Source: Nitrospiraceae bacterium | GTDB taxonomy: Bacteria > Nitrospirota > Nitrospiria > Nitrospirales > UBA2166 | DNA: 29,191 nt | Direction: 5' to 3' | Assembly: GCA_002726235.1 (NCBI GenBank) | Contig: PBSN01000006.1 | Span: forward strand, 14,660-43,850 | Shown here: piece by piece, positions 11,442-16,954 of the stretch | How the letters are laid out: each line of letters begins with the position of its first letter | Position numbering within the stretch: position 1 is the stretch's first letter | The notes under the pieces: model-generated | What the model was told of the DNA's origin: nothing | The model's input: the letters and a program-made list of their open reading frames with translations, nothing else | The model's database searches: none | Program-made: the position numbers and the translations under genes

Positions 11442-13070
11442 ATGGATAGATCAACACCTTTCGTGCTCAGTCACAAATGGCTGGCACTCACTGTAGTTGG
11501 CGTAGCCTTTACACTCACTATGGGTTGCGGTGACAGTGACAGTGACACAACTACCCCGGAGACAGGCACAGCAACCCAAGCGACAGCCGAGCAACCTGCG
11601 GAGTTCGTAGCTGCACTAGGTGATTTTACCGACTACCGTTACTGGCGGACGCTTGATTATAGCACGGGCTATACGAATCCATACCTTGTCGACAAACACA
11701 TGGCAGCTGATAACGCCTACTCTCGGCGCGTATGGATTAACGAGCCCGGAGCGAGATCGCGAGAAGCCGGAGAAGCCTCCTATCCGCTAGGAACAGTCAT
11801 TGTCAAGGAAACGTTTACTTGGGACGAGAGCGGAAACAAGCAATTCGCTGCCATGGGTGGAGTGTTGGGCATGGTAAAGCGCGGTGGAAATTTCAACAAG
11901 GATGGGGAGCATTGGGAATGGTTCATGCTAGCCTCAGACCCTGCAACTAGTGCCCTTGAAGAAATCAAGGACCGTGGCGGAGCCTCTCTCATGGATGGCA
12001 TGTGTAACAGCTGTCACGCAAGCGCGAACGCCCAGACTGAGGGCTCAGACATGGTATTTGCGCACCCCTCAGACATTGAGGTCACGGACGGATTTTTCGC
12101 CGATTACGCCACATGGTCGGTCATACAAAATACTCCGGAAAACCACGTCCTGTTGAGCATGGCGCACAAAAGCGCAGACCCGGACACCATACGCACAGTC
12201 TACAAGAAGCAGCTCCAGGCCAACCCGAAACACACCCCTGACACATACAACGTAATCGCGGACGTGTACCCGATTGGGACGGCCATTCTGAAGACGGTCG
12301 CAGACGCGACTGGTGCCATTATCGAGATCACGGCCATGGTCAAGCGCGCCCCGGCCTTTAACGAAGATCACGGTGGCTGGGAATGGTTTATGCTTGATCC
12401 AGCTACAGCCGGTGTTATGCCAGAAATGCGAGGAGCAGGCTTGGGCAACAATATGTGCAACACATGCCATATTGCGGCCACGGGACCCTCTGGCCTGAAT
12501 GGCGTTGACTACGTGTTTAAACACCCGAATGACCCATTCGTCAATATGGGAGAACCCGTAGTACCAGAAGTTGCACCGGAACCAGCAGCCGCAGAAGAAA
12601 CGGTAGCGGTAGCAGAACCAGTAGCCGCAGAAGAACCGGCAGCGGCAACGAGCAATTTAGGCCCAGCCGCATTTAAGGCTGACTTTGCAACATCTCCGGA
12701 ATTCTACACCAACATGATTGCACTGAATTCTAGTAACCCTCCCTCTCCCCACAATGCGGTCAAAATCTGGTACTCGATAAACATGCAGGAAATGGCTGCA
12801 GCTGGCAGTACGGGACCGTGGCCTGAGGGAACCACGTCCATTAAACAGGTGGATATGGCGCCAGCAGATGGAGTCATCGACGAAATTGTTGTGATGATTA
12901 AGATGGCTGCTGGATACGATACAGCAAACGGCGACTGGTACTACGAGGCGCGCGATGCAAATGGCACCCTCTTGACCGACGAAGCCAAAGCGCCTGGAAA
13001 GAATGCCATGTGCATCGGCTGTCACGCTGCAAATTCAAAAGATTACTTGGCAGGCCTAGATCTACGCTAA
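11442..13070 (+). CDS. Lipoprotein with three tandem cytochrome P460-like haem domains
   Basis: The ATG at 11442 follows a strong gcggagga ribosome site and opens directly into a signal sequence ending LTMGC (C29, probable lipidation). Three repeats of one domain follow. Haem sites are CNSCH (188-192), CNTCH (339-343) and CIGCH (524-528). Each repeat has a (Y/W)P.GT strand with a Lys (K122, K284, K468), a second Lys (K146, K301, K487) and a W-rich strand (HWEWFML, GWEWFML, DWYYEA) before CXXCH. Repeats 1 and 2 end in DMVF and DYVF. This matches the cytochrome P460 family, whose members oxidise hydroxylamine or bind NO; known ones are single-domain. A Pro/Ala/Glu linker (about 371-402) separates repeats 2 and 3. 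Probably periplasm-facing; catalysis versus electron transfer is open. Confidence 0.85.
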   Translation: MDRSTPFVLSHKWLALTVVGVAFTLTMGCGDSDSDTTTPETGTATQATAEQPAEFVAALGDFTDYRYWRTLDYSTGYTNPYLVDKHMAADNAYSRRVWINEPGARSREAGEASYPLGTVIVKETFTWDESGNKQFAAMGGVLGMVKRGGNFNKDGEHWEWFMLASDPATSALEEIKDRGGASLMDGMCNSCHASANAQTEGSDMVFAHPSDIEVTDGFFADYATWSVIQNTPENHVLLSMAHKSADPDTIRTVYKKQLQANPKHTPDTYNVIADVYPIGTAILKTVADATGAIIEITAMVKRAPAFNEDHGGWEWFMLDPATAGVMPEMRGAGLGNNMCNTCHIAATGPSGLNGVDYVFKHPNDPFVNMGEPVVPEVAPEPAAAEETVAVAEPVAAEEPAAATSNLGPAAFKADFATSPEFYTNMIALNSSNPPSPHNAVKIWYSINMQEMAAAGSTGPWPEGTTSIKQVDMAPADGVIDEIVVMIKMAAGYDTANGDWYYEARDANGTLLTDEAKAPGKNAMCIGCHAANSKDYLAGLDLR

Positions 13071-13078
13071 TTTAATAA

Positions 13079-13111
13079 GGGAATAGTTCCCTATAAAGGG
13101 GAACTATTCCC
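13079..13111. repeat. Perfect 13-bp hairpin between P460 and haem-barrel genes
   Basis: GGGAATAGTTCCC (13079-13091) is separated by 7 nt from its exact reverse complement (13099-13111). It starts 8 nt after the P460 stop codon and ends 16 nt before the ATG of the next gene. No T-run follows on the plus strand, so it is not a classic terminator for the upstream gene. It is more likely an mRNA-stabilising or processing element, a partial attenuator or a protein-binding site. Each arm is itself nearly palindromic (GGGAA..TTCCC). Confidence 0.8.
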
Positions 13112-13127
13112 TGTAAAATAGGTGTCA

Positions 13128-14264
13128 ATGCGCCGCACGTTGCTTGTTCACATTGTACTTCTGGGGTTGTTCCTATTTCTATGGGCCGAGGTCGCCTCGG
13201 CCGTTCCCCGCTTTTCCATGCGAACCGGCCTGTCGTGCAACGCATGTCACGTGAATCCAAGTGGGGGGGGAATGCGCACCGAGCATGGAAGCTTGTACGG
13301 GCGTATGAACCTCCCCCTCAACCCCACCATGCGAGCCAAGGGCGAGAAATTCAGCCCGAAAATTACCAAACACCTCACCGTGGGGTCAGATCTCCGCGTA
13401 ATGGGGTTCTCTGATAATCGGCACAATCTCAGTTTCTTCCCAATGCAGGCGGACCTCTATATTTCCGCCCAACTGACCGACAAAGTCCTGCTCTACCACG
13501 ATCAAAGCCTGCTTTCCAGCGAGATTGAAACCTTTGGTCTCGCTCAAATCCTACCGTTCTCAGGCTACGTCAAGGCAGGAAAGTTTGTTCCAGCATTCGG
13601 ATGGAAGCATGATAATCATACGGCCTTTACGCGCGGAGGGAATTCGAGTTCGCGAGAAGTCGGGCAAGTAACCCGCGGCACAGGGTTCAGTCGGGATGAT
13701 AAAGATACTGGCGTCGAGGTTGGATTCTATCCAGGACAAGCCTCCATTCAATTGGCCGTCCTGAATGGACAAAGAGGAGGCATCCCGTTTGATAACAATC
13801 AGGGTAAAGCCTATGTCGCGCGAGCAGATTACTTTATTCTCAACTTCGAGCATCTGAAGACAAACGTCGGAGGATCGTTCTATCACAACGATGCGGAGAC
13901 CTTTGAACGACAGATCTATGCCGGCCATGCCGGAATCAACCTGTGGAAATTAACGTATCTCGGCGAATATGACTGGAATGAGCTATCGCGAGACACCACG
14001 CCACGCGTAAAAAGTACGGCGCAATATCACGAGCTTAGCTTTCTTCCTGTCCAAGGGATTGATCTGAAGGGGATATATGAACACATAGATCCAGATCGTA
14101 ATATCGATCGTGATGAGCTCTCCAGAATTGGAGCAGGGATAGAATTTTTCCCCTTACCTCATAATGAAATTCGTCTCGAATACCGTCATACCACGGGGCA
14201 TAAGGAAATCAACCCTGATGCCGGGTTAGATGAAGTCTTTCTCATGTACCATTTTTATTTTTAA
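13128..14264 (+). CDS. Outer-membrane beta-barrel with N-terminal c-type haem motif
   Basis: I choose ATG 13128 (378 residues) over an in-frame GTG 6 nt earlier because aggtg lies at good distance. A signal peptide ends near ASA-VPRF (residue 25). Immediately after is CNACH (37-41) in RTGLSCNACHVNPSGGGMR, a one-haem site. The rest is a string of alternating amphipathic strands, for example KVLLYHDQSLLS, GYVKAGKFVPAFGWKHDNH, EIRLEYRHTTG and the final FLMYHFYF. The C-terminal Phe is the usual BAM insertion signal. Fused haem-porins such as Cyc2 of iron oxidisers have this order, though the haem surroundings differ. It probably carries electrons, or plugs its own channel, at the outer membrane. 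Its position behind the triple-P460 lipoprotein suggests joint function. Confidence 0.78.
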   Translation: MRRTLLVHIVLLGLFLFLWAEVASAVPRFSMRTGLSCNACHVNPSGGGMRTEHGSLYGRMNLPLNPTMRAKGEKFSPKITKHLTVGSDLRVMGFSDNRHNLSFFPMQADLYISAQLTDKVLLYHDQSLLSSEIETFGLAQILPFSGYVKAGKFVPAFGWKHDNHTAFTRGGNSSSREVGQVTRGTGFSRDDKDTGVEVGFYPGQASIQLAVLNGQRGGIPFDNNQGKAYVARADYFILNFEHLKTNVGGSFYHNDAETFERQIYAGHAGINLWKLTYLGEYDWNELSRDTTPRVKSTAQYHELSFLPVQGIDLKGIYEHIDPDRNIDRDELSRIGAGIEFFPLPHNEIRLEYRHTTGHKEINPDAGLDEVFLMYHFYF

Positions 14265-16324: not shown

Positions 16325-16954
16325 TCACAACTTAATGGATGAAACGAGTTGATTGAGCCACTTGATTGGGAAAAACATCGACACAGTTTCCTGGTACCGC
16401 CGGTAAGGAACCCCAAACATCACAACCAGTTTTCGTTCTTCGAAATACGTCCCTATAAACAGATACACGGTCAGGACAGCATTAGTGACAAGCGTCACGA
16501 CAGACACGTCTCGGGCCCACAGAAAAAGCAGCAACGCAAGGTACCACGGATGCCGTACTACGCGATGAATGCCGGAGATAGTCAAGACTGGTGAGGACGT
16601 ATCACAAGATCCAGCACGATAAGCTGCAATTTGCCGAATACCTAAAAACTCACGCCCATCATATCCACGCATACCCAGTGCGAAAAATAGGATACCGAGA
16701 GCCCAACACAGATATTGAATCAGAGTGTACGGCCATACCCATTGTAATATCGGGGAAACATGTATGGAAACGGAAAACCAGAGAATTGGGATCAACCCAA
16801 CGATGCTCACCACATTGTAGGTGAGGCGATAATACGCCGCCGCAACACCCCAGCATTGCTTGATCCAGTTCGCAACGGAGGGCGCAGCCAAGACACTGTG
16901 CACAGTACCATACCCAGCCCAGCACAACCCGAGCGTAACAAGATCTGACCACAT
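16325..16954 (-). CDS. Membrane methyltransferase of the ICMT/PEMT (NnrU-like) superfamily
   Basis: The 209-residue protein has about five hydrophobic segments. It ends with the signature of isoprenylcysteine/phospholipid methyltransferases: GIHRVVRHPWYLALLLFLWA, then FIGTYFEERKLVVMFG and YRRYQETVSMFFP. The RHPxY and EE..L parts form the S-adenosylmethionine pocket in this superfamily. The N-terminus (GYGTVHSVLAAPSV) resembles NnrU-like and methanethiol-methyltransferase-like members. The acceptor is unknown; lipids, thiols and prenyl-cysteine are all possible. Its ATG overlaps the stop of the zinc-ribbon gene by one base (TGATG), implying translational coupling. Confidence 0.8.
   Translation of the reverse strand: MWSDLVTLGLCWAGYGTVHSVLAAPSVANWIKQCWGVAAAYYRLTYNVVSIVGLIPILWFSVSIHVSPILQWVWPYTLIQYLCWALGILFFALGMRGYDGREFLGIRQIAAYRAGSCDTSSPVLTISGIHRVVRHPWYLALLLFLWARDVSVVTLVTNAVLTVYLFIGTYFEERKLVVMFGVPYRRYQETVSMFFPIKWLNQLVSSIKL

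Follow-up and report, generated by a model that had tools for sequence, protein, structure and literature searches.

A predicted lipoprotein with three tandem cytochrome P460-like domains and a co-inherited barrel gene in Nitrospirota

Introduction

What could one protein do with three copies of a fold that has been studied one copy at a time? Structurally characterised members of the cytochrome P460 and c′-β family are single-fold subunits, mostly homodimers, and the sequences studied so far are proteobacterial (2025 review, PMC11928373). These single-copy proteins either bind NO or oxidise hydroxylamine. The window analysed here, a 29,191-nucleotide stretch of a Nitrospirota genome, encodes a 542-residue protein. 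From the letters of the sequence, the original prediction proposed that it carries three P460-like domains (D1, D2 and D3) behind a lipid anchor, acting as a multi-site hydroxylamine or NO enzyme or as a haem wire built from P460 units. We asked whether the three domains are genuine, where they came from, which residues line their haem sites and what the neighbouring genes imply for the role of the protein.

Results

Three P460 domains behind a predicted lipid anchor

The gene and its product are laid out as follows (window coordinates).

11442..13070, + strand: predicted triple P460-domain lipoprotein, 542 residues, ATG at 11442 and stop codon ending at 13070; PF16694 4.2e-24 over the whole protein
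11442..11528, + strand: predicted signal peptide and lipobox, VGVAFTLTMG-C29 with Gly at +2; PS51257-type pattern in the window and in the sister species
11622..12065, + strand: D1, residues 61–208, with K122, L142, K146 and C188NSCH; PF16694 39.5 bits (8.6e-10)
12093..12533, + strand: D2, residues 218–364, with K284, T297, K301 and C339NTCH; PF16694 28.4 bits (2.3e-6)
12534..12662, + strand: Pro/Ala/Glu-rich linker, residues 365–407; recognised from sequence, with high dN/dS and a different length in the sister species
12663..13067, + strand: D3, residues 408–542, with K468, V483, K487 and C524IGCH; PF16694 30.7 bits (4.8e-7)

A GGAGG ribosome site lies shortly 5′ of the ATG. Searched whole, the protein matches the PF16694 profile over three stretches, and each repeat, when excised and searched alone as the original prediction had recommended, scores above the Pfam gathering cut-off for this family (27 bits), confirming three tandem P460 domains. 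The motifs first read by eye are likewise all found at the residues named for them: Y/W-P-x-G-T occurs three times, both lysine columns are in place, and CXXCH begins at 188, 339 and 524.

The N terminus fits a lipobox pattern of the PROSITE PS51257 type, ending on Cys29. This Cys, with Gly at +2, is present in the window genome and in the sister species; the residue at −3 is Thr, which is permitted, though another residue is more frequent there. By this pattern the 542-residue product is predicted to be a bacterial lipoprotein, in keeping with the anchor first proposed.

AF2 models were built on shallow alignments of 3 to 7 rows; the one for the whole protein is of no use (pLDDT 31, pTM 0.25), and that of repeat 2 is of low confidence (pLDDT 45) and mostly β, where the family fold is a five-stranded antiparallel β-sheet with a CXXCH towards the C terminus. 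Searching this low-confidence repeat 2 model against the PDB with Foldseek returned cytochrome P460 or c′-β for all of the best 22 matches, and VIA-align 2 returned the same two groups for all of the best 17 (Z 5.6–6.7), the first unrelated row following at Z 4.7. Other Pfam matches to the protein are weak, centred on CXXCH and below their own cut-offs. Ordinary cytochrome c helices were thus rejected.

Origin, distribution and selection

PF16694 is carried by 133 of 395 Nitrospirota genomes and, among the Nitrospirota matches listed, an open frame longer than 343 residues occurs only in the genus of the window. Our genome-by-genome survey covered Nitrospirota and Myxococcota; in the latter, a search of 195 genomes recovered two tandem proteins, the didomain P460 lipoproteins L078 (MAG G589) and L093 (G419, contig C1031). 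When a broader set of genomes was scanned once with one protein as query, the sole matches were the sister species and L008, a single-domain Myxococcota lipoprotein that shares GYDxANGDWYYE and MCIxCH with D3. No description of a tandem, triheme or lipoprotein P460 was found in the open-licence literature. The premise that known P460s have one domain therefore stands for the papers searched but not for genomes, where tandem P460 lipoproteins, with at least two in Myxococcota, form a recurrent class.

A 57-domain tree places D1 beside the first domain of L078 (support 99/85) and D2 beside the second (100/98), and the D1 and D2 lineages join (94/85); the duplication that gave D1 and D2 therefore predates the separation of these genes. 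D3 sits elsewhere, among single-domain Myxococcota lipoproteins (96/91). This bears out the suspicion that the third repeat, behind its Pro/Ala/Glu linker, is the odd one out: it is divergent because it derives from a different P460 branch. We infer that the triple protein arose when a D1–D2 didomain was joined through the linker to a D3-type lipoprotein domain; in the alternative order, the Myxococcota form would have dropped D3. The two domains of L093 cluster together, which suggests more than one tandem fusion in the history of P460 domains. A recent internal duplication was considered and rejected, as the domains are only about 20–38% identical to one another and all three occur in the sister species; tblastn gave no match that would indicate a plasmid origin.

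The window genome (G000) is a 1.87-Mb Nitrospirota MAG, 91% complete. Its sister species, MAG UBA2166 (NCBI: Nitrospirota, Nitrospirales), encodes an orthologue that is 88% identical and retains all three domains, and the triple protein has no match in two further congeners (G001 and G002). Between window and sister species, dN/dS is 0.063 for D1, 0.048 for D2 and 0.025 for D3, against about 0.42 for the linker (residues 367–405). Purifying selection acts strongly on each of the three domains, and D3, the most diverged repeat, is the most constrained between this pair of species.

A nitrite oxidoreductase-type DMSO reductase gave no match above cut-off in the 91%-complete MAG; on this evidence the organism seems not to be a typical Nitrospira nitrite oxidiser. 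A separate locus (L132:1-6776; contig C13, about 59.0–65.8 kb) encodes an AioA/IdrA-like molybdoenzyme (TIGR02693, 429 bits, above cut-off) with a di-haem CCP_MauG peroxidase on either side, which recalls the layout of iodate-reductase (idrABP1P2) clusters; we recognised no separate Rieske subunit at this locus. In the window itself, 16325-16954 on the − strand encodes a relative of MddA-like methanethiol S-methyltransferases (NF045656, 1e-17, below cut-off).

A two-gene module with a predicted barrel

Two features follow the P460 gene directly.

13078..13112, + strand: 15-bp perfect hairpin in the intergenic spacer; fold z-score −6.1
13128..14264, + strand: partner gene, encoding an N-terminal CXXCH and then a predicted outer-membrane β-barrel; weak PF13505 match and sequence

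The CXXCH of the partner sits in RTGLSCNACH, and the match of the protein to PF13505 (OMP_b-brl) is weak and below cut-off (0.0013); neither NCBIfam nor the PDB gave a match. Set against Cyc2-type fused cytochrome–porins, the partner has the CXXCH, with the barrel drawn from that weak sub-cut-off PF13505 match only, and we refer to it as a putative cytochrome-porin. The hairpin is single copy in the genome, which eliminates a repeated element; it is absent from the operon of the sister species, lacks a T-run and was not called as an intrinsic terminator.

In UBA2166 (L007) the partner ATG follows the P460 stop by 2 nt, a spacing that is a sign of an operon. The pair is found in G000 and G003; in G001 and G002 both genes are cleanly missing together from the corresponding position, where the flanking ferritin-like and anti-sigma genes adjoin (about 165 and 265 bp apart) and the remaining gene order is unchanged to the contig ends. 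By this joint presence and absence the P460 gene and the barrel gene behave as one two-gene module, lost or gained together; G001 and G002 retain only a barrel paralogue, 61% identical. The neighbours of the module are a ferritin-like protein, an ECF sigma factor and a zinc-finger anti-sigma factor, none of them NO-specific.

All four species of the genus retain the barrel paralogue. In G000 its locus (L069:1-8825; contig C8, about 248.0–256.8 kb) adjoins an MnxG-like multicopper oxidase, a fusion of CusF, cytochrome c and periplasmic-binding parts, and a YVTN β-propeller protein; metal oxidation or outer-membrane electron transfer is a possible role for this cluster.

A module of this kind brings the idea of a haem wire into focus, in which the three P460-fold haems and the porin haem would form an outer-membrane electron conduit with no ligand chemistry. 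Tandem haems in a single lipoprotein and a co-transcribed CXXCH barrel speak for such a conduit, and the residence of the porin paralogue in a multicopper oxidase/cytochrome c cluster is consistent with a redox role for barrels of this type. However, the haems of P460 and c′-β proteins are five-coordinate, distorted, ligand-binding and low in potential (about −200 to −424 mV), properties suited to ligand binding (PMC11928373), and the flexible linker ahead of D3 would interrupt a fixed haem chain. We regard a pure wire as unlikely.

Candidate cross-link lysines without a distal carboxylate

The residues that cross-link the haem are Lys70 in NeP460, Lys78 in McP460 and Lys106 in NsP460 (PMC11928373). 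Profile alignment lays the GTVIVKE of NsP460 (6amg), whose Lys is residue 106, onto the GTxxxK of each repeat, and this match to Lys106 identifies the first lysine column (K122, K284 and K468) as the P460 cross-link column, answering which of the two columns corresponds to the Nitrosomonas residue. The second column (K146, K301 and K487) is a conserved Lys four residues past the distal base. At the column of NeP460 Arg44, whose mutation prevents cross-linking (PMC11928373), D1 and D2 retain an Arg.

The base column is occupied in NsP460 by Ala131 (Glu or Gln in solved mutants, the A131E mutant being 6e17), and NeP460 Glu96 aligns to the same column. By sequence alignment, at about 15–20% identity and across loops of varying length, the window domains present Leu142 (D1), Thr297 (D2) and Val483 (D3) here, and no carboxylate; the D1 Leu and D2 Thr recur in the Myxococcota homologues. 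A Glu stands two residues ahead of the column in D2 (E295) and D3 (E481) and is not conserved in their relatives. In the same alignment, 19 of 26 single-domain Nitrospirota P460s (from L009–L038) have the cross-link Lys together with the distal Glu, both residues of the NH2OH-oxidising P460s.

The carboxylate (Glu96/Asp102) is present in both NH2OH-oxidising cytochromes P460 and missing from the inactive ones (PMC11928373, Table 2); NsP460, cross-linked and inactive, has none, nor do any of the c′-β proteins, and in NeP460 the conservative change Glu96Asp already abolishes activity (PMC11928373). With no distal carboxylate in any domain, NH2OH oxidation by the known route is not expected, and from their residues we predict that the three domains are P460-like in cofactor and not competent for that reaction. 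The first of the roles originally offered, a multi-site hydroxylamine enzyme, fares poorly on this evidence. An oxidase that yields NO or N2O, its three cross-linked P460 haems working in parallel or in series, could appeal to the cross-link Lys of every domain, to the Arg of D1 and D2 and to the nearby Glu295 and Glu481; the base column nonetheless lacks a carboxylate in all three domains, against its presence in most of the aligned single-domain Nitrospirota proteins, and even Glu96Asp NeP460 is inactive. A search for the multi-haem HAO family (PF13447) gave no hit, its control likewise being silent, and so does not bear on absence. We consider such an oxidase improbable.

Discussion

Proposed function

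Signalling by the domains, on binding NO or CO, through the adjacent ECF sigma/anti-sigma pair is very improbable, for although those genes adjoin the porin gene and c′-β-type pockets are discussed as NO sensors (PMC10318465), the protein has no signalling domain, and G001 (sigma/anti-sigma and ferritin-like) and G002 (anti-sigma and ferritin-like) keep these genes without the P460–porin pair, which marks them as backbone and not module.

The reading that we favour, and to which we give an even chance of being right, is an outer-membrane-anchored, NsP460-like ligand-binding and redox triheme cytochrome that works with its cytochrome-porin. The protein would be exported and lipid-anchored, and each of its three P460-fold domains would carry one five-coordinate c-haem on its CXXCH; the cross-link Lys is in place in each, so that each haem may be cross-linked. 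Without a distal carboxylate these sites should resemble that of NsP460 and would not oxidise hydroxylamine efficiently; most likely they would bind NO or another small ligand, exchange electrons, or both. The lipobox with Gly at +2 points to the outer membrane as the probable seat, where lipoprotein and co-transcribed cytochrome-porin would constitute a two-gene redox module; a dedicated cytochrome-porin suggests electron exchange at that membrane.

A haem-copper oxidase/NO reductase (PF00115, one family) was not found in the 91%-complete MAG and, speculatively, an envelope NO binder or sink would be useful to such a cell. The stronger proposal, that three cross-linked P460 haems couple nitrogen-oxide ligand chemistry to electron flow through the dedicated cytochrome-porin, we hold to be a long shot. 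If true, it would locate redox chemistry of nitrogen oxides in the cell envelope, beyond the known soluble HAO/P460 systems. Two or three fused copies of the P460 fold occur in Nitrospirota and Myxococcota lipoproteins, the triple form being tied to a putative cytochrome-porin, and these proteins offer a natural test of why the Lys cross-link is kept without the catalytic carboxylate, with three such sites in one protein under strong selection.

Comparison with known systems

The nearest kin of D3 are L008 and L082, Myxococcota P460 lipoproteins of one domain each. L078 has counterparts of D1 and D2 in the same order behind a lipoprotein-like start; it differs in being without D3, and its 8.9-kb contig showed no cytochrome-porin. 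Cytochromes c′-β (McCP-β and TtCP-β) share the predicted fold, the CXXCH and a non-acidic distal pocket with the window domains, but their cross-link column is occupied by Phe or Met; in all three window domains it holds Lys, which places each of them outside a group defined by having no Lys there. NeP460 (Nitrosomonas europaea, 2je3) shares the predicted fold, the CXXCH and the Lys70 column, as well as the Arg44 column with D1 and D2; it differs in having Glu96 and oxidising NH2OH, where the window domains have Leu, Thr and Val. NsP460 (Nitrosomonas sp. AL212) has a single, unfused domain, is described as a homodimer and has a longer loop from Lys to base than D2 and D3; alignment reveals no counterpart of its capping Phe in the window domains. 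It nevertheless has in common with them the predicted fold family, the CXXCH, the Lys column and the missing distal carboxylate.
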